Below are positions 5,359 to 11,968 of a stretch of 42,622 nucleotides of DNA, piece after piece; positions within the stretch are counted from its first letter, which is position 1, and each line of letters begins with the position of its first letter. The translations under genes and the position numbers were made by a program. The notes below the pieces were generated by a model that saw only the letters and a list, made by a program, of their open reading frames with translations, did not search any database and had not been told where the DNA came from. Source of the stretch: Streptomyces pseudogriseolus (GTDB lineage Bacteria > Actinomycetota > Actinomycetes > Streptomycetales > Streptomycetaceae); assembly GCA_002154585.1 (NCBI GenBank), contig MUNG01000051.1:1-42622 (forward strand). The letters run 5' to 3'.

Positions 5359-6255
5359 TTACGCGGCGACCGTCGTGTAGTGCGAGGCGTCCCCCTCGAT
5401 CGCGTAGGACTCCTTGCCGTCGACGCCGACCGGGATGTCACCGGCGACCGTGACCCGGTGCAGCCGGCGCGGCAGGCCGTCGTAGTTGTCGACGGCGTAG
5501 TGCTGGGTGATGCGGTTGTCGAACAGCACCAGCTGGTTGGGCGACCAGCGCCAGCGCACCAGGTTCTCCGGCCGGGTCACGTACGCCTGGAGCAGATCGA
5601 GGACCTTGCGGGACTCGCCCTTCGACAGTCCCACGATCCGCTGCGCGAACCCGCCGATGAACAGCCCGCGCTCGCCGGTCAGCGGGTGGACGCGCACCAC
5701 GGGGTGGACGGTGCGGTACTTGATGGAGGTGAACCGGGCGCGCCGGGCCGCCTCCGTCTCGTCGATCGCCTCCTCCGGGACGGCGTAGTCGTAGTCGTTG
5801 GTGTGCTCGGCCCACAGGGTGTCGGTGAGCCTCCGCAGCGGCTCGGGCAGGTCCCGGTAGGCGGCGGCCGCGTTCGCGATCAGGGTCTCGCCGCCGTAGG
5901 GCGGGATCGTGATGCTGCGCAGCGTGCTGGCCTGCGGCGGGTTGAGGACGAAGGTGACGTCCGTGTGCCAGTTGTTGGCGGCGCGGCCGCCCTCGCTGTC
6001 GACCGGCAGCACGTTGGGGGCGCCGTCCACGGCGGGCACCGTCGGATGGGCGCCGGTGATGTCGCCGAAGTGCCGGGCGAACGCCTGCTGACCCGCGTCG
6101 TCGAGGTTCACGTCGTCGAAGAGAAGGGTCTTGTGGGTGTTCAGCGCCTCCCGCAGCGCGGCGACGGTCGCGTCGTCCAGCGGCTGTGAGATGTCGACGC
6201 CGGAGACGCGGGCGCCGATGTTCGCGGTGACCTTGGTGATCTCGAGGTCGGCCAT
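5359..6255 (-). CDS. TauD/TfdA-family Fe(II)/2-oxoglutarate dioxygenase
   Basis: A 298-aa non-haem iron dioxygenase of the taurine/alkylsulfatase group. The iron triad is visible: H97-T-D99 in N-N-W-H-T-D-V-T-F, and distal H252 in I-T-Q-H-Y-A-V-D, with a downstream Arg (R-R-L-H-R) in position to bind 2-oxoglutarate. Family members hydroxylate the carbon next to sulfonate or sulfate ester, releasing sulfite, sulfate or an aldehyde. As last gene of a five-gene leftward cluster with an SsuABC-like transporter and a flavin monooxygenase, it most likely frees sulfur from an organosulfur compound. The ATG at 6255 has GAAAGGA upstream. The gene lies 44 bp from the monooxygenase gene. Family certain; substrate (taurine, alkyl sulfate, other sulfonate) unresolved. 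Confidence 0.92.
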   Translation of the reverse strand: MADLEITKVTANIGARVSGVDISQPLDDATVAALREALNTHKTLLFDDVNLDDAGQQAFARHFGDITGAHPTVPAVDGAPNVLPVDSEGGRAANNWHTDVTFVLNPPQASTLRSITIPPYGGETLIANAAAAYRDLPEPLRRLTDTLWAEHTNDYDYAVPEEAIDETEAARRARFTSIKYRTVHPVVRVHPLTGERGLFIGGFAQRIVGLSKGESRKVLDLLQAYVTRPENLVRWRWSPNQLVLFDNRITQHYAVDNYDGLPRRLHRVTVAGDIPVGVDGKESYAIEGDASHYTTVAA

Positions 6256-6299: not shown

Positions 6300-7640
6300 T
6301 CAGACGAGGGCGGGTACGCCGGTGACGTGCTGGTTGGCGGGGCGGGGCAGGCCGTAGCGCTCGCGCAGGGTCTGCCGGGGGCCGTACTCGGCGCGGAACA
6401 GGCCGCGGGCGCGCAGCAGGGGCACGACCTGGTCGACGAAGGTCTCCAGGCCGGACGGCAGCACGGCGGGCATGATGTTGAAGCCGTCGGCGGCGCCCTC
6501 GGCGAACCACCGGCCGATGGTGTCGGCGACCTGCTCGGGCGTGCCGGCGAAGGTCAGGTGCCCGCGCCCGCCGCCCAGCCGCGCGATGAGCCGCCGCACG
6601 GTGAGCCGCTCGCGCCGGGCCAGCTCCACGATCAGCGTGTAGCGGCTCTTGGCGCCCTCGATCTCGTCCTCCGACGGCAGTTCGCCGGGCAGCTCGGCGT
6701 CCAGGGCGAGCGTGCCCGGGTCGAGGCGCAGCAGCTCCTCCAGCCGGCGCAGCCCGTGCTCGGGCACGATGTGCTCGTCCAGCACCTGCTCCAGCCGCCG
6801 CGCCTCGGCCTCGGTGGAGCCGACCACGGGCACGATGCCCGGCAGCACCTTCACATGGTCCGGGTCGCGCCCGGCCGCGGCCGTACGGGCCTTGAGGTCG
6901 GCGTAGAAGGACCGCGCGTCGGCCAGGGTCTGCTGGGCGGTGAACACGGCCTCCGCGTACCGCGCCGCGAACCGCTTGCCGTCCTCCGACGACCCGGCCT
7001 GCACCAGCAGCGGATACCCCTGCGGTGTGCGCGGTACGTTGAGCGCGCCCTCCACCCGGAAGTACGTGCCCCGGTGGCGCGGCGGATGGATCTTGCCGTC
7101 GTCGCCCCACACCCCGGCCGCCTTGTCGGCGACGACGGTGTCGTCCTCCCAGCTGTCCCACAGCAGCCGCGCGACGTCCAGGAACTCGGCGGCCCGCGCG
7201 TACCGCTCGGCGTGCGCGGGCTCGGCGTCCAGACCGAAGTTGCGGGCCGCCTCGGCGCCGGCGGTGGTGACGATGTTCCAGCCGGCCCGCCCCTTGCTGA
7301 CGATGTCCAGCGAGGCGAACTTCCGGGCCAGGTTGTAGGGCGAGTTGTACGACGTGGACGCCGTGGCGATCAGCCCGATGTGCTCGGTCGCGGTCGCCAG
7401 GGCGGTGAGCAGGGTGAGCGGCTCCAGTGCCCCGGCGGGACGCTGGGCGACGGTGTTCCACAACTGGGGCCCGTCGGCGAGGAACAGCGAGTCGAAGGCG
7501 CCCCGTTCGGCGATCCGGGCCAGCCGTACGTAGTGGTCCAGGTCGACATGGGCGTAGGGGTCACTCTCGGGCAGCCGCCAGGAGGCCTCGTGGTGACCGG
7601 TGTTCATGAGGAAGGCGTTGAGGTGGAGCTGTCTGGGCAT
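6300..7640 (-). CDS. LLM-class flavin-dependent monooxygenase (NtaA/SnaA/DszA type)
   Basis: A 446-aa bacterial-luciferase-like monooxygenase that would use reduced FMN from a partner reductase to oxidise a small organic substrate. The N-terminus L-N-A-F-L-M-N-T-G-H-H-E-A-S-W-R and the full length are typical of the NtaA/SnaA/DszA subgroup (nitrilotriacetate, pristinamycin and dibenzothiophene-sulfone enzymes). No flavin reductase gene is seen nearby, so reduced flavin must come from elsewhere. The ATG at 7640 has AAGGAA 6 nt upstream. The position between an SsuABC-like transporter and a TauD-type dioxygenase suggests C-S bond cleavage, but an amine or chelator substrate cannot be excluded. 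A dispersed repeat with a hairpin lies just upstream, between it and the ATPase gene, and may lower its transcription relative to the transporter. Confidence 0.9.
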   Translation of the reverse strand: MPRQLHLNAFLMNTGHHEASWRLPESDPYAHVDLDHYVRLARIAERGAFDSLFLADGPQLWNTVAQRPAGALEPLTLLTALATATEHIGLIATASTSYNSPYNLARKFASLDIVSKGRAGWNIVTTAGAEAARNFGLDAEPAHAERYARAAEFLDVARLLWDSWEDDTVVADKAAGVWGDDGKIHPPRHRGTYFRVEGALNVPRTPQGYPLLVQAGSSEDGKRFAARYAEAVFTAQQTLADARSFYADLKARTAAAGRDPDHVKVLPGIVPVVGSTEAEARRLEQVLDEHIVPEHGLRRLEELLRLDPGTLALDAELPGELPSEDEIEGAKSRYTLIVELARRERLTVRRLIARLGGGRGHLTFAGTPEQVADTIGRWFAEGAADGFNIMPAVLPSGLETFVDQVVPLLRARGLFRAEYGPRQTLRERYGLPRPANQHVTGVPALV

Positions 7641-7681: not shown

Positions 7682-7753
7682 CAGCCCGTCCGGCGTCTGA
7701 GGACGAGGCCCGTCAGGGCCGGAGCGGGGGCCCGGGGGCGGCAGCCCCCGCGT
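7682..7753. repeat. Dispersed intergenic repeat, copy 2, overlapping the ATPase gene end
   Basis: The head CAGCCCGTCCGGCGTCTGAG matches the repeat at window position 1. The tail forms a hairpin CGGGGGC-GGCA-GCCCCCG at 7733-7750. The copy sits inside the leftward sulfur operon and covers the last codons of the ATPase gene, whose stop is at 7713-7715. Confidence 0.65.
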
Positions 7754-8456
7754 CGGTCACGCCGAGCGCGTGAAGCAACCGCGCCCGGTACTCCCCGTGG
7801 GAACCCCCCTCCCGCTCGACCGCCAGGTCCACCTCGATCCGCCCCCGCGACAGCACCAGCACCCGGTCCGCGAGGACGATCGCCTCGTCCACGTCGTGGG
7901 TGACCAGCAGCACCGACGGCCGGTGCCGCTCCCACAACTGCCGCAGCAGCCCGTGCATCTTGATACGCGTCAACGCGTCCAGCGCCCCGAACGGCTCGTC
8001 CGCGAGCAGCAGTTCCGGCTCCCGTACCAGGGACCGGGCCAGGGCGGCCCGCTGTGCCTCGCCGCCCGACAGCTCGCTCGGCCAGGCGCGTTCCCGGCCG
8101 GCGAGGCCGACCTCGGCGAGCGCGGCCCGGCCGCGTTCCTCGGCGTCCTTGCCGTCCAGGCCCAGCAGCACGTTGGGCAGGACGCGGCGCCAGGGCAGCA
8201 GCCGGGAGTCCTGGAAGACCACCGACACCCGTTCGGGTGCGGTCAGGGTGCCGCTGCCCGCCACCCCGTGGTCGATGCCCGCGATCGCGCGCAGCAGGGT
8301 GCTCTTGCCGGAGCCGCTGTGCCCGAGCAGCGCGGTGAACTGGCCGGCGGGCAGGTCCAGGTCGAGGCCGTCGAGGACCGTGCGCCCCTCGAAGGACCGG
8401 GTCAGGCCGCGCAGCCGTACGGCCGGCCGGGTCAGCTGCTGAGTGTGCGGCGCCAT
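7713..8456 (-). CDS. ABC transporter ATP-binding protein, sulfonate/nitrate type (SsuB-like)
   Basis: A 247-aa ATPase of the SsuB/TauB/NrtD group that powers import with the permease encoded just upstream. Motifs in order: Walker A G-H-S-G-S-G-K-S-T near residue 44, Q-loop V-V-F-Q-D-S-R-L-L-P-W, signature L-S-G-G-E, Walker B L-L-L-A-D-E-P, and H-loop V-T-H-D-V-D-E-A. The ATG at 8456 overlaps the permease gene by 25 nt and has a strong GGAGGG site inside it, so the two are translationally coupled. The last dozen or so residues (A-A-A-P-G-P-P-L-R-P) are encoded by a dispersed intergenic repeat, which probably replaced the original C-terminus or stop region. The fold is complete before that point, so function should be unaffected. 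Confidence 0.92.
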   Translation of the reverse strand: MAPHTQQLTRPAVRLRGLTRSFEGRTVLDGLDLDLPAGQFTALLGHSGSGKSTLLRAIAGIDHGVAGSGTLTAPERVSVVFQDSRLLPWRRVLPNVLLGLDGKDAEERGRAALAEVGLAGRERAWPSELSGGEAQRAALARSLVREPELLLADEPFGALDALTRIKMHGLLRQLWERHRPSVLLVTHDVDEAIVLADRVLVLSRGRIEVDLAVEREGGSHGEYRARLLHALGVTDAGAAAPGPPLRP

Positions 8457-9301
8457 GACAGCACCCTCCGTTCGATCGCGCGGACGGCGGTGTCGGAGAC
8501 CAGGCCGAAGAGGCCGTACACGACGAGACCGACGAGGATGACGTCCGTCCGGCCGTAGTTCTGCGCCTGGAACATCATGTAGCCGAGTCCGCTGGTGGCG
8601 TTGATCTGCTCGAGGACGACCAGGCCCAGCCAGGACCCGGTGACGCCGAGCCGCAGCCCGACGAAGAAGCCGGGCAGCGCGCCCGGCACGACGACCTGCC
8701 GGACGAAGGCGGACCGGGACAGGCCCTGCACCTCCGCCAGTTCCACGAAGCGGTGGTCGATGCCCGACAGCGCGGCATGGGTGTTCAGGTAGATCGGGAC
8801 GTAGACGACGATGGCGATGATCGCGATCTTGAAGGTCTCGCCGATGCCCAGCCAGAGGATGAACAGCGGGATGAGGCCCAGCGTGGGCACCGCGCGGTTG
8901 AGCTGCACGCTGCCGTCGATCAGCGCCTCGCCGATCCGGCTCAGCCCGGAGGCCAGCGCGAGCACGATGCCCGCGGTCAGGCCGATCGCGAACCCGGCCC
9001 CGGCGCGTCCCAGCGAGGTGAGGACGTCGTTCGGCAGGGTGCCCTCGGTCCACAGCCGGATCCCGGTCTCCACCACGGTCCAGGGCGCGGGGATCGCGCC
9101 GGGGTCGAGCTGTCCGGCGGCGGAGGCGGCGGCCCACAGCGCCAGCACGAGCAGGGGGCCGGCGATCCGGCCGGCGGGGAGCCGTTTGCCCGGGGACAGC
9201 CGTCGTCGTCGCCGTACCTGATGCTCCTCCTCGACGGCGGGCGGCGCGGTCGGGGTCGCGGTCGTGGTCTCTGTCGTGGTCCCCGTCGGGGTCGTGGTCA
9301 C
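8432..9301 (-). CDS. ABC transporter permease, sulfonate/nitrate type (SsuC-like)
   Basis: A 289-aa inner-membrane subunit with about six transmembrane helices and the EAA loop around H-R-F-V-E-L-A-E-V-Q-G-L-S (the ATPase contact site) in the second half. The N-terminus is an unusual Thr-rich leader (M-T-T-T-P-T-G-T-T-T-E-T-T-T) followed by a basic stretch before the first span. Two GTG starts are possible. I chose 9301, because GGAGGTGA lies 5 nt upstream, over 9310, which overlaps the binding-protein stop as GTGA but has no spacing for a ribosome site. It forms one transporter with its neighbours and is translationally coupled on both sides. The imported compound is probably an organosulfur anion. 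Confidence 0.92.
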   Translation of the reverse strand: MTTTPTGTTTETTTATPTAPPAVEEEHQVRRRRRLSPGKRLPAGRIAGPLLVLALWAAASAAGQLDPGAIPAPWTVVETGIRLWTEGTLPNDVLTSLGRAGAGFAIGLTAGIVLALASGLSRIGEALIDGSVQLNRAVPTLGLIPLFILWLGIGETFKIAIIAIVVYVPIYLNTHAALSGIDHRFVELAEVQGLSRSAFVRQVVVPGALPGFFVGLRLGVTGSWLGLVVLEQINATSGLGYMMFQAQNYGRTDVILVGLVVYGLFGLVSDTAVRAIERRVLSWRRTLSS

Positions 9302-9306
9302 GGCGG

Positions 9307-10371
9307 TCACCTCCGGTACTCCGCGGGGACGGCCCGCGCGGCGAGCGGTTCGAAGCGCCGGTCGAAGAGGGCGTCGACGTCGAACTCCTTCACGTAGCCG
9401 CCCTCCGCGAGCAGATCGGCGGTCTCCTGCTCCCACGCGATCGCCTCGTCCCAACGCGGCGGGAAGCAGGGCTTGTTGGCGAGGGCGGTGATGGACTCGG
9501 CCTGGGCGGGCGTGAGGTTCTGCCGCTTGACGTAGTACTCCCTGTTCCACACGTCCGGGTGCTCGTACTGCCACACCGCGCCCCGGGCCCAGTACGGGAT
9601 GTACGCGGCGACCGCGGCGGCCTTCGCCCGGTCGGCGAGCACCTCGGCCGGCGCCCACAGCAGGTTGAGCAGGTCCACCACGTCGGTGGGGATGGTGCGG
9701 GCGCCCTTCGCCCCGTACTGCTCGAGATAGGCGGGGGCCTGGCTGATGCCGAGCGGGGCGATGTCCACCTGCCCGGACTGCAGGGCGGTGAAGAACTGGT
9801 TGCTGGTGAGCGGCACCAGTTCGGCGTCGTCGTGGTCGAGGCCGGCTTCCTTGAGGGCGCGCAGCAGCACCACGCCCTGCGCCTGCCCCTGGGAGAACGC
9901 CAGCCGCCGTCCCTTGAAGTCGGCGACCGTGCGGATGTCGCTGCCGGGCTTCGTGGCGAACAGGTAGTTGGGCCTGCGGGTGACGTTGATGGCGACGATC
10001 CGCGCGTCGAAGCCCTGGTAGAAGGCCTGGATGGGCGGAATTCCCGCGTTGTTGGCGAGATCCAGGGACCCCGCGCGGAAGGCGTTGATGACGTCCGGGC
10101 CGGCTCCGATGTTCAGCCAGTCGGCCACCTCGAAGGGCAGGTCGTCGAGGCCGGCCAGCTTCAGCTGGATCTCCTGGAACCCCTCGAACGAGGAGATCTT
10201 CAGGCGGGTCCCCGGCGGGACCTTCGTGGCCAGCGGGGCCTTCAGCGCGGCCTCGTCGGCCGCGGCCCCGGCCTCCGCGCAGCCGCTCAGGCCGGCCACG
10301 GCGGCGGTGACGCCGAGCAGGGAGGTGAGGAAGAGACGCCGGTCGAGGCCGGGCGCCGGTGGTGCGGGCAT
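9307..10371 (-). CDS. ABC transporter substrate-binding lipoprotein (SsuA/TauA-like)
   Basis: A 354-aa extracytoplasmic solute receptor. The signal region has a twin arginine (D-R-R-L-F-L at 10-15), a hydrophobic core, and a lipobox L-S-G-C with the lipidated Cys at about residue 31, suggesting a Tat-exported lipoprotein. The rest is a periplasmic-binding-protein type 2 fold of the NMT1/SsuA group (N-N-A-G-I-P-P-I-Q-A-F-Y and V-A-D-F-K-G-R-R-L-A-F-S-Q-G). It is the first large gene of the leftward cluster. The ATG at 10371 has GGGAG 7-8 nt upstream. Its 220-bp leader carries a cysteine-rich mini-ORF and three stem-loops, so expression is probably controlled by cysteine supply. The true ligand is unknown. 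Confidence 0.92.
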   Translation of the reverse strand: MPAPPAPGLDRRLFLTSLLGVTAAVAGLSGCAEAGAAADEAALKAPLATKVPPGTRLKISSFEGFQEIQLKLAGLDDLPFEVADWLNIGAGPDVINAFRAGSLDLANNAGIPPIQAFYQGFDARIVAINVTRRPNYLFATKPGSDIRTVADFKGRRLAFSQGQAQGVVLLRALKEAGLDHDDAELVPLTSNQFFTALQSGQVDIAPLGISQAPAYLEQYGAKGARTIPTDVVDLLNLLWAPAEVLADRAKAAAVAAYIPYWARGAVWQYEHPDVWNREYYVKRQNLTPAQAESITALANKPCFPPRWDEAIAWEQETADLLAEGGYVKEFDVDALFDRRFEPLAARAVPAEYRR

Positions 10372-10397
10372 GAGGGAACTCCCGGGGAAGGGGAAAT

Positions 10398-10507
10398 GCG
10401 CACAGGGGAGTGCGCGGGGACGGAAAGGCAGGCGGAATTACCGGGCCGGAAATGCCCGGAGGGAAAAGCACGCGAGAGAGGAGGGACGTCGCGGACGACC
10501 GCGCGTC
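10398..10507 (-). promoter_or_regulatory. Structured leader of the sulfur operon
   Basis: Three stem-loops lie between the mini-ORF and the binding-protein ATG: 10485-10507 (9 bp with one bulge, tetraloop), 10441-10459 (CCGGGC/GCCCGG, 7-nt loop) and 10398-10415 (GCGCAC/GTGCGC, 6-nt loop). In the RNA the last loop reads UCCCCU, partly complementary to the GGGAG ribosome site at 10379-10383. This is the layout expected if a stalled ribosome changes access to the downstream start. Structures found by eye; no folding energy computed. Confidence 0.5.
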
Positions 10508-10513
10508 AATGTG

Positions 10514-10549
10514 TCAGCAACAGAGGGTGCGACAGCTCATGACCAGCAT
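10514..10549 (-). CDS. Cysteine-rich leader peptide (uORF) of the sulfur operon
   Basis: An 11-codon ORF, M-L-V-M-S-C-R-T-L-C-C-stop, located 143 nt upstream of the SsuA-like gene and read in the same direction. Three of its last six codons are Cys and the final two are consecutive, in a genome where Cys is rare. Two starts are possible. The first ATG (10549) has AGGGA/AAGGA upstream. The second ATG (10540) lies 7 nt after a possible -10 (GAACAT) that is 18 nt from a perfect TTGACA, which would make a leaderless 8-codon ORF (M-S-C-R-T-L-C-C). Leaderless poly-cysteine mini-ORFs act as cysteine-responsive attenuators in mycobacteria. The same role is inferred here: stalling at the Cys codons when cysteine is scarce would open the downstream ribosome site. 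Confidence 0.6.
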   Translation of the reverse strand: MLVMSCRTLCC

Positions 10550-10577
10550 GTTCCTTGTCCCTGAGGAGGGCTGTCAA
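10548..10577 (-). promoter_or_regulatory. Candidate promoter of the sulfur operon
   Basis: TTGACA at 10577-10572, an 18-nt spacer, then GAACAT at 10553-10548 on the minus strand. The -35 is perfect; the -10 is weak (second A and final T conserved). It begins 18 bp beyond the ROK stop, so the operon can be transcribed independently of the regulator gene. Confidence 0.45.
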
Positions 10578-10594
10578 TATTCCGAGTTTCTGAA

Positions 10595-11803
10595 TTAAAT
10601 ACGCTCTGGTGACACGCTCAGCGGGTCCCGGTAGAGCACGTCGAGAGCGACCGCTCCACCCGCGACGGCCAGTACGGATTCCGGGAAACTCGTCGGTGTC
10701 ACCGTGGCCGCCCGCGCCGGATCCAGCTCGCCGCGCAACGCCGCGAGACAGTCCGTCCGGTGGATGACGCCGATCTCGGTGACGATCACGCTCTCCGGGT
10801 TGAGGACGTCCGTCAGCAGCCTCACCGCGCGCCCCGCCATGCGGGCCCGCTCCCGCAGCAGCCGCGCCGCCACCGGATGCCCGGCCGCCGCCGCGTCGAC
10901 CACGTGCAGCGGATCGTGCCCGTCGCACACGCCGGCCTCACGGGCCCGCCGGCACAGGGTGCGCTCGCTCAACTCGGCCTGGAGGCAGCCGGTCCGGCCG
11001 CACGCGCACGGCTCCGCGCCGCCCGCCAGCGGCAGATGGGCGATCGCGCCCGCCTGGGACCTGGGCCCGTGGTGCACCTCGTCATGGGTGGCGAAGGCCG
11101 CGTCGACGATGTTCCCGGCGAACAGGTGCAGCGCGCTCCGGCCGCCCCGCGCCCCCCGCCCGAACAGCCGCTCCGCGTCCGCCAACGCCCGTGCGTGCCC
11201 GTCCACATGGACCGGCAGCCCGGTACGGGCGCGCAGCACCGTACGCGCCGGGACGTCCCGCCAGCCCAGCAGCGGATGGTCGACGACCGTGCCGGCCGCG
11301 CGGTCCACCCAGCCGCCGGCCGCGAAGCCGACGCCGAGCGGCCGCCGCTCCGGCACCCGCCCCAGCAGCTCCGCGAGACCGCCGGCGGCCCGCTCCAGCA
11401 CCCGCGCCGGCTCGGTGTCCGGGTGCGGCAGCCGCCGTTCGGCCACCACCCGGCCACGCAGATCGAGCAGCGCCACCGTGGTGTGCGGCACCGCCACATG
11501 CACCCCGCCGACCACCAGCCGCGACCGGTCGACGTTGAGGGGCAGGTGCGGCCGTCCCACACCGCCCGAGCGGCGGGGCGCCGAAGCCTCCCGCAGCAGG
11601 CCGAGTTGGGTCAGGCGGGCGCAGTGGTCGGTGACGGAGGCCGGCGACAGACCGGTGAGCCGCGCGATGGTGCTGCGCGCCACCGGACCGTGCTCCAGCA
11701 CGCACCGCAGCACGGTGCGGGCGCTGGTGCGCCGCCGGTCGGGGTCGGCGGCACGCGCCGGGCGGGCGGGGGAGTGGGGCGGGGGTGCCACGGTACGAAG
11801 CAT
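10595..11803 (-). CDS. ROK-family transcriptional regulator
   Basis: A 402-aa protein with an N-terminal winged-helix domain (about residues 28-80: T-V-L-R-C-V-L-E-H-G-P-V-A-R-S-T-I-A-R-L-T) and a C-terminal ROK sugar-kinase-like domain. The ROK zinc motif C-A-C-G-R-T-G-C is present near residue 270. The expected ATP-site glycines are partly degenerate, as in regulators rather than kinases. The ATG at 11803 has GAGGAAG 7 nt upstream, so I prefer it to the GTG at 11833. The stop is TAA, rare in this genome. The gene is co-oriented with and directly upstream of the sulfur operon, and has its own cysteine-containing leader ORF, which points to a role in sulfur or sulfur-sugar metabolism. Most ROK regulators answer to sugars, so a sulfoquinovose-like or other sugar ligand is possible. 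Confidence 0.88.
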   Translation of the reverse strand: MLRTVAPPPHSPARPARAADPDRRRTSARTVLRCVLEHGPVARSTIARLTGLSPASVTDHCARLTQLGLLREASAPRRSGGVGRPHLPLNVDRSRLVVGGVHVAVPHTTVALLDLRGRVVAERRLPHPDTEPARVLERAAGGLAELLGRVPERRPLGVGFAAGGWVDRAAGTVVDHPLLGWRDVPARTVLRARTGLPVHVDGHARALADAERLFGRGARGGRSALHLFAGNIVDAAFATHDEVHHGPRSQAGAIAHLPLAGGAEPCACGRTGCLQAELSERTLCRRAREAGVCDGHDPLHVVDAAAAGHPVAARLLRERARMAGRAVRLLTDVLNPESVIVTEIGVIHRTDCLAALRGELDPARAATVTPTSFPESVLAVAGGAVALDVLYRDPLSVSPERI

Positions 11804-11884
11804 GGGGAACTTCCTCGGGAACGGGTCCGACACTGCGCCGTCGTACGGGAGTCGAGGCGCGCCGGATCCGTTCCGTCCGCCTCG

Positions 11885-11968
11885 TCAGAGGAGGCGACAG
11901 GCAGCCGCGCCCACGCGTCGCAGATCGACGTGGCGACGCGAGGTGAAGTTCCGGGACTGGGCGACCAT
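11885..11968 (-). CDS. Leader peptide of the RRHVDL type upstream of the ROK gene
   Basis: A 27-aa ORF ending 81 nt before the ROK ATG, same strand. Its core R-R-H-V-D-L-R-R-V-G-A-A-A-C-R strongly resembles short 'putative leader peptides' that, from memory, are annotated ahead of sulfur-assimilation and transport genes in streptomycetes (core RRHVDLxRV followed by a Cys near the end). It has no Shine-Dalgarno. Instead TAGCTT lies exactly 6 nt before the ATG, the spacing expected for a leaderless transcript starting at the A of ATG. It ends C-R-L-L-stop. The likely role is attenuation of the downstream gene in response to cysteine. Length and start are well supported by the motif; function is inferred. 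Confidence 0.7.
   Translation of the reverse strand: MVAQSRNFTSRRHVDLRRVGAAACRLL

Follow-up and report, generated by a model that had tools for sequence, protein, structure and literature searches.

Mycobacteria are known to use cysteine leader attenuators (Canestrari et al. 2020, as described in PMC9031893, PMC13236596 and PMC9094748), and candidate cysteine leaders are listed in PMC4633059. By these accounts, the mycobacterial leaders Ms5788A and Ms4527A are leaderless first open reading frames (ORFs) that contain Cys codons and stand before sulfur genes, with several per genome. Seliverstov et al. 2005 (PMC1262725) described cys leader candidates with runs of Cys near the stop codon and no conserved terminator, and suggested Rho for mycobacteria, a suggestion that they called weak; their cysteine section names Mycobacterium, Propionibacterium acnes and Bifidobacterium longum, and the two Streptomyces genomes in the set are unnamed in that section. 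In Streptomyces, an excerpt of a study of S. lividans TK24 (PMC8079986) describes eight leaders upstream of amino-acid genes, several of them leaderless and without a clear terminator, which are assigned to Leu, Trp, Ala, Ile, Met and Thr and in no case to cysteine; the metL peptide holds three Cys and is assigned there to methionine. Among the literature matches listed, in which subscription papers are sparsely covered, none describes a cysteine leader of an ssu-type Streptomyces operon.

Here we describe such a leader in a 42,622-nucleotide stretch of Streptomyces pseudogriseolus DNA (the window, meaning the whole stretch that was analysed), which sits in a draft genome of 7.26 Mb and 773 contigs. 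An earlier note on this DNA had proposed a streptomycete cysteine attenuator in which a ribosome stalled on Cys-Cys-stop opens the start of an SsuA-like gene. The leader is probably (about 0.8) a leader-peptide attenuator that acts in cis, responds to cysteine and governs an SsuA-like operon for organosulfur uptake and desulfonation. The Cys leader itself, which looks leaderless at the second ATG, its conserved Cys codons, its link to the operon and its resemblance to the mycobacterial systems speak for that part of the proposal, and the opening of the SsuA site by a stall found no support in structure prediction.

Compared with Ms5788A and Ms4527A, the peptide MSCRTLCC is far shorter, belongs to another operon and another genus, and has a near-fixed codon choice; in contrast to the mycobacterial type, an SD-opening step is unsupported here by structure prediction. 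It also differs from NF042934 (cis_reg_atten, "putative leader peptide"), in that the CRTLCC type has no H-V-D-L core and ends Cys-Cys-stop, although the same genome has NF042934-type leaders before sulfur genes and before the ROK gene of the window, and one relative uses such a leader before its SsuA-like gene. The 12-codon leader of a relative, entered as a 19-residue reading extended upstream of the inferred start plus one X (the tool takes at least 20 residues, and MSCRTLCC is shorter), had no match to NF042933, NF042936 or NF042934, and the long-type leaders described below scored 15.8 and 14.6 bits against NF042933, whose cut-off is 45. By these comparisons, the leader adds a new sequence family to an attenuator kind that is already known. 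If our reading is right, the main antibiotic-producing genus shares the cysteine sensing by ribosomes that has been proven in mycobacteria, and organic-sulfur scavenging would be controlled by a gene of 8 codons, which usual gene calling would miss for its shortness.

The leader ORF, its promoter and the downstream operon

The following features of the window, all on the minus strand, define the locus.

10595 to 11833, minus strand: ROK-family regulator gene, upstream (family models)
10579 to 10595, minus strand: ATTC-N9-GAAT, operator-like, adjoining the -35 box and in contact with the ROK stop codon (motif kept in 76 of 81 sequences)
10572 to 10577, minus strand: -35 box TTGACA, perfect (in 81 of 81 sequences)
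10548 to 10553, minus strand: -10 hexamer GAACAT (xAxxxT), 7 nt 5' of the second ATG (spacing conservation and the promoter statistics of PMC8079986)
10514 to 10540, minus strand: leader ORF MSCRTLCC-stop, probably leaderless (Cys leader in 80 of 80 related loci)
9307 to 10371, minus strand: SsuA-like substrate-binding lipoprotein (TIGR01728 SsuA_fam, 99.1 bits, below the cut-off of 163.5)
8432 to 9304, minus strand: SsuC-like permease, N-terminal limit approximate (family models)
7713 to 8471, minus strand: SsuB-like ATPase, N-terminal limit approximate (family models)
6300 to 7640, minus strand: NtaA/DmoA-family FMN-dependent monooxygenase (family model over cut-off)
5359 to 6255, minus strand: TauD/AtsK-like dioxygenase, N-terminal limit approximate (family models)

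The 11-codon ORF with a Cys-Cys-stop end that the earlier note had reported, M-L-V-M-S-C-R-T-L-C-C-stop, is present on the minus strand at 10549-10514, as is the perfect TTGACA upstream of it (10577-10572). The note had also raised a leaderless 8-codon form with three Cys, which begins at a second ATG at 10540 and reads MSCRTLCC plus TGA (10540-10514, minus strand), and the promoter geometry suggests that this is indeed the form used. The best -10 hexamer, GAACAT (10553-10548), overlaps the first ATG (10549) by its final two bases, so that only the second ATG fits the promoter; an ATG occurs at the position of the first in 12 of 81 sequences (80 Streptomyces loci plus the window). In all 81, the arrangement TTGACA-N17/18-xAxxxT-N6/7-ATG is found, with -35/-10 and -10/ATG spacings of 18/7 in 76, 18/6 in four and 17/7 in one, and a 19/6 reading fits equally in two loci. 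Because this geometry is constant while the ORF measures 8, 11, 12, 13, 16 or 27 codons, all in frame, the leader ORF is probably leaderless and starts at the second ATG.

The promoter statistics of S. lividans (PMC8079986) bear on this assignment. The -10 element there lies on average 6.3 nt from the start, and leaderless promoters have A at -10 position 2 in 94.5% of cases and T at position 6 in 97.4%. The same promoters have T at position 1 in 63.8% and a mean -35/-10 spacing of 16.5; the lack of T at position 1 in all 81 sequences (76 G, 4 A, 1 C) and the 18-nt spacing count, on this comparison, against the fit to a leaderless promoter. A sigma-70 scan returned 0 promoters because GAACAT matches TATAAT at three of six places and the tool requires four, and the Streptomyces rule xAxxxT (PMC8079986) was used instead. 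The ATTC-N9-GAAT sequence is an operator candidate, perhaps for the ROK regulator; in an extended form, with up to three mismatches allowed, the pattern occurs once in its own genome.

The three transporter proteins score below the cut-offs of the Ssu models (99.1 of 163.5, 186.4 of 347 and 235 of 395 bits). From the gene set, an SsuABC-like transporter together with an FMN monooxygenase and a TauD/AtsK-like dioxygenase, we infer a role in organosulfur scavenging. The link that had been drawn between the mini-ORF and an organosulfur operon, whose genes lie downstream on the same strand, is supported.

Conservation among Streptomyces

Relatives were collected by a search with the SsuA-like protein, and the best 80 of at least 102 confirmed relatives, all named Streptomyces, make up the locus set; the nearest among the matches listed is S. 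althioticus JCM 4344, whose SsuA-like protein is 93% identical. A short Cys-rich leader stands ahead of the SsuA-like gene in all 80 named loci. With the window included, the leader ends Cys-Cys-stop in 80 of 81 sequences and holds exactly three Cys in 79, Cys counts that are partly built in, as the search required at least two. Run with wide spacing limits, the same search found 81 leaders in 81 sequences and none in their 81 reverse complements, and a control in stretches of the SsuA gene and beyond gave 0 of 80. Within the window's own genome, the pattern TTGAC-N28..34-ATG-N0..30-Cys-Cys-stop has one match, the window site, and its reversed control also has one; the element is thus not beyond chance within a single genome and is so by conservation. 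A degenerate CRTLCC search with two mismatches likewise stayed at chance level in that genome (140 matches, 133 reversed). On the evidence of its relatives, the mini-ORF is real and conserved.

There are 32 distinct leader peptides among the 81 sequences. The 80 loci comprise 76 leaders of the C-R-x-x-C-C type, counting in one that ends CRTLCR and one that ends CHAFCC, and four of a long type. A strict codon pattern is present in 74 of the 80 loci and in the window; outside it stand L048 (CRILCC), L077 (CRTECHAFCC) and the four long leaders (L040, L045, L064 and L080), which read MSS(S/A)RVQVPLTKCRVVDLMRVARTRCC and end A-R-T-R-C-C. In L045 and L080, the long leader lies at about -577 and is visible only with a longer upstream stretch. 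The last Cys is lost in L049 (1 of 81) and in one further genome, L131, losses that count against an attenuator. The note had looked to a Streptomyces alignment for conservation of both the Cys codons and the hairpins: the Cys codons are kept, and the hairpin facing the ribosome site is not (see below). The L077 leader, SCRTECHAFCC, has extra codons and four Cys with the frame kept.

Constraint on the leader reaches individual bases. In 75 leaders, the successive codons are TGT (74), CGC (75), ACC, ACT or GCC (54, 16 and 5), a free codon, TGT (74), TGC (73) and TGA (75), and the base after TGA is C in all 75. Of the Cys codons, TGT makes up 11 of 93 in the window genes (as called) and 2 of 81 in the loci's SsuA genes. 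Positions of the element other than its 4-nt loop show their commonest base in 93-100% of the 75 leaders; for positions that lie over 25 nt beyond the leader stop, the figure is 31-81%. In the peptide, Arg and Thr are conserved nearly as strongly as Cys. The near-fixed TGT, TGT, TGC and the kept Arg and Thr would exceed the needs of a plain codon-starvation sensor, and because the Cys codons are near-fixed while TGT is rare elsewhere, selection probably acts on something beyond the amino acids. A nascent-peptide role is possible, since the long type shares R-T-x-C-C-stop in frame. In one locus, L079, the peptide is kept with changed Cys codons.

The DNA pattern TGTCGCRCNNNNTGTTGCTGAC was found in 28 of 249 family genomes, with one match each; the carriers fall in one of 17 genera, the window's own, and the reversed control gave 0. 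All 28 sites (the window included) have the same promoter and an SsuA-like gene downstream on the same strand, and the 28 carrier species may overlap in part with those of the 80 named loci. When the protein was searched for across the class, 17 of 296 genomes matched at 1e-60, yielding 16 loci besides the window. Each of the ten loci with 74-80% identity carries a Cys leader, which is CRxxCC in six (genomes that the pattern scan had also picked out), CRTLCR in one, long in two and of the NF042934 type in one. For the six SsuA homologues that are at most 58% identical (L137-L142), no such leader was found; one of them, L141, carries a short Cys ORF that lacks the promoter. In L132, from a Streptomyces genome (G009), the NF042934-type Cys leader replaces the CRTLCC type before the SsuA-like gene, which is, by this comparison, a leader swap.

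The leader RNA

Four further features concern the transcript from the leader codons to the SsuA-like gene.

10512 to 10534, minus strand: possible hairpin over the Cys codons and stop (UGUCGCAC / G.UUGC.UGAC), predicted at about -5 kcal/mol
10485 to 10507, minus strand: GC-rich hairpin right after the leader stop (predicted fold; 80.3% of cells paired)
10372 to 10513, minus strand: C-rich, G-poor untranslated leader, C/G 2.06, candidate Rho loading region (base composition)
10379 to 10383, minus strand: ribosome-binding site GGGAG of the SsuA-like gene (sequence)

The predicted fold of 10550-10355 has a z-score of -3.78 against 200 shuffles and contains the three stem-loops that had been noted between the ORF and the SsuA-like start, at about 10507-10485, 10459-10441 and 10415-10398. 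The loop of the last, UCCCCU, is complementary to part of the GGGAG site, as had also been pointed out; this feature hardly recurs, for the hairpin, sought by its own sequence, is present in 2 of 75 leaders. Mean predicted SD accessibility is 0.14 in the free leader and 0.145, 0.143 and 0.137 with a stalled ribosome masking Cys1, Cys2 or the stop (73 of 75 leaders, omitting L065, which has a run of N, and L070, which has no SD by the pattern used). The Cys2 mask shifts accessibility by more than 0.1 upward in two leaders and downward in two, and the Cys1 mask raises it in three and lowers it in none. Near the SsuA start, predicted folding is at the level of shuffles (mean z 0.01, -0.03 and 0.11), the region just past the leader stop folds slightly better (mean z -0.87, 64 distinct sequences), and the region 40-72 nt past the stop has a mean z of -1.06. 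In a hand-picked sample of 38 of the 59 distinct sequences, covariation scores equal those of shuffles, and the GC-rich hairpin after the stop has no covariation beyond shuffles. The proposed switch, in which a stall on Cys-Cys-stop opens the SsuA start, is thus unsupported in these models by stall masks, windowed fold z-scores, hairpin recurrence and covariation alike.

The hairpin over the Cys codons would pair most of the invariant bases of the leader. Six of its seven pairs never vary and are therefore uninformative; it has no covariation and its stability does not exceed that of shuffles (mean z -0.31 over 41 distinct sequences), and for these reasons we keep it only as a possibility.

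The C/G ratio after the stop is 2.06 in the window, with a median of 1.72 and a minimum of 1.29 in 75 leaders, some of these stretches including a few codons since the match began inside the gene. A value of 2.06 is reached by 0.1% of same-length windows of the window; across loci, the post-stop stretch lies in the top 5% of same-length locus windows in 54 of 74. Among 18 upstream regions in the window, the leader also has the strongest C skew (1.74 over 200 nt, against 1.36 for the second; gene calls rough). Between the leader stop and the gene lie 142 nt in the window and 78 to 457 nt in relatives, and no fold is conserved towards the gene. A terminator scan of 10300-10650, confined to the window, found 0 terminator-like sites, and no Rfam cis-regulatory RNA reached the gathering score in the window, where just two tRNAs did; two matches far below the gathering score lie on the opposite strand.

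Proposed mechanism and alternative explanations

We propose that transcription would start at or beside the A of the second ATG, making M-S-C-R-T-L-C-C-stop the first gene of the message, and that ribosomes would begin on the 5' AUG. With ample Cys-tRNA, they would reach the UGA and leave, and most transcripts would end up unfinished or untranslated; when cysteine is short, they would stall on the Cys codons beside the stop, the operon would be turned on and organic sulfur would be imported. In tnaC-type leaders, a ribosome stalled at the end of the leader ORF keeps Rho from terminating transcription within the leader. We are less sure of the output here, which may be Rho termination in the C-rich leader past the stop, shielded by the stalled ribosome, rather than opening of the SsuA site. 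Rho-dependent termination is our preferred reading, at roughly even odds, because the leader is C-rich, G-poor and without an intrinsic terminator; an excess of C over G is a weak predictor of Rho action, and the variable length of the gap, with no conserved fold at its end, also counts against this reading.

Translational attenuation, in which the stalled ribosome would prevent leader structures from sequestering the SsuA ribosome site, seems to us doubtful. Mycobacterial leaders of this kind are reported to regulate translation, according to excerpts of the citing papers, and the SD is mostly paired in the predictions (0.14 unpaired on average, 0.12 in the window) and faces a complementary loop here. 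However, the stall masks leave its mean accessibility nearly unchanged, leader length is highly variable, and neither stability near the start nor the anti-SD hairpin is conserved. The leader could instead be a loading site that raises operon translation by reinitiation, and no sensor. Reinitiation has been argued for actinobacterial leader genes with short gaps (PMC4833913), but the gaps here and in the relatives are long for direct reinitiation and the Cys codons would be left unexplained, so that we regard this as very improbable.

The base-level constraint could also mean that the conserved 22 nt are mainly a nucleic-acid element, a repressor operator or an RNA hairpin, and the ORF is incidental. 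The near-invariant TGT, CGC, TGT and TGC, the C after TGA, the scarcity of TGT in genes and the coincidence of the weak hairpin's paired positions with most of the invariant bases would fit such an element. We think it unlikely: the promoter-ATG distance is fixed and length changes stay in frame, L079 keeps the peptide with other Cys codons, the long type keeps R-T-x-C-C-stop, L132 has another Cys leader in the same place, and there is no covariation. Shared descent in an under-diverged promoter region, with no function at all, could draw on the confinement of all 28 pattern carriers of the 249 family genomes to one genus, but we find it scarcely credible given the contrast in conservation between the element and the bases downstream and the nearly identical ending of the 32 peptides.

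Within the attenuator reading, a more specific and quite tentative idea is that the 22-nt element is read twice, as C-R-T-x-C-C-stop codons and as a fixed RNA or nascent-peptide signal. Arrest at Cys-Cys-UGA-C would then sense cysteine and block Rho, and the leader would belong to a set of nine or more Cys leaders through which sulfur genes and the ROK regulator follow cysteine supply without a protein sensor. With 32 natural peptide variants behind one fixed promoter, the action of the leader, whether through Rho or translation, is directly testable.

Other cysteine leaders in the same genome

The ROK gene upstream has a leader of its own.

11885 to 11968, minus strand: second Cys leader, MVAQSRNFTSRRHVDLRRVGAAACRLL-stop, separated by 51 nt from the ROK gene (NF042934 match)

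Against NF042934 (cut-off 27), this leader scores 29.8 bits as a peptide and 26.1 in the genome search, where it falls below the cut-off. Peptides like it occur at about the same place in 22 of the 80 loci by one pattern (some flanks are too short). A 2014 study by Lyubetsky et al. reportedly used regulation to connect PF00480 (ROK) and PF14340 proteins with sulfur metabolism, and is said to have concerned leader peptides with cysteine codons; the ROK leader may therefore already be in print.

Searches with NF042933 and NF042934, together with reading of the loci, gave eight other Cys leaders in the window's own genome. The genes behind them, mostly sulfur genes by their translations, read as a cysteine dioxygenase, a CysM-like synthase, an FMN reductase beside an SsuD-like monooxygenase, a sulfite/nitrite reductase, a dicarboxylate/amino-acid symporter, a rhodanese, a second SsuA and the window's ROK gene, names that come from reading the translations except for ROK (family libraries). 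In the NF042934 genome search, 7 of 21 matches pass the cut-off, one of them only with in-frame neighbours; the remainder include 12 weak matches (at most 17.5 bits) and C770 (25.5 bits, sub-threshold), which lies at a contig end with no readable gene behind it and was not counted. Seven of the eight other leaders precede C-rich sequence (C/G 1.37-2.82), in favour of Rho, and the ROK leader does not (1.0), which counts against it. The leader before the rhodanese-like gene (L090/L147, C3) ends D-L-C-R-V-A-A-M-L-C-R-T-F-stop; it reaches 42.4 bits against the 45-bit cut-off of Ms5788A and has C-R-T in common with the CRTLCC type.
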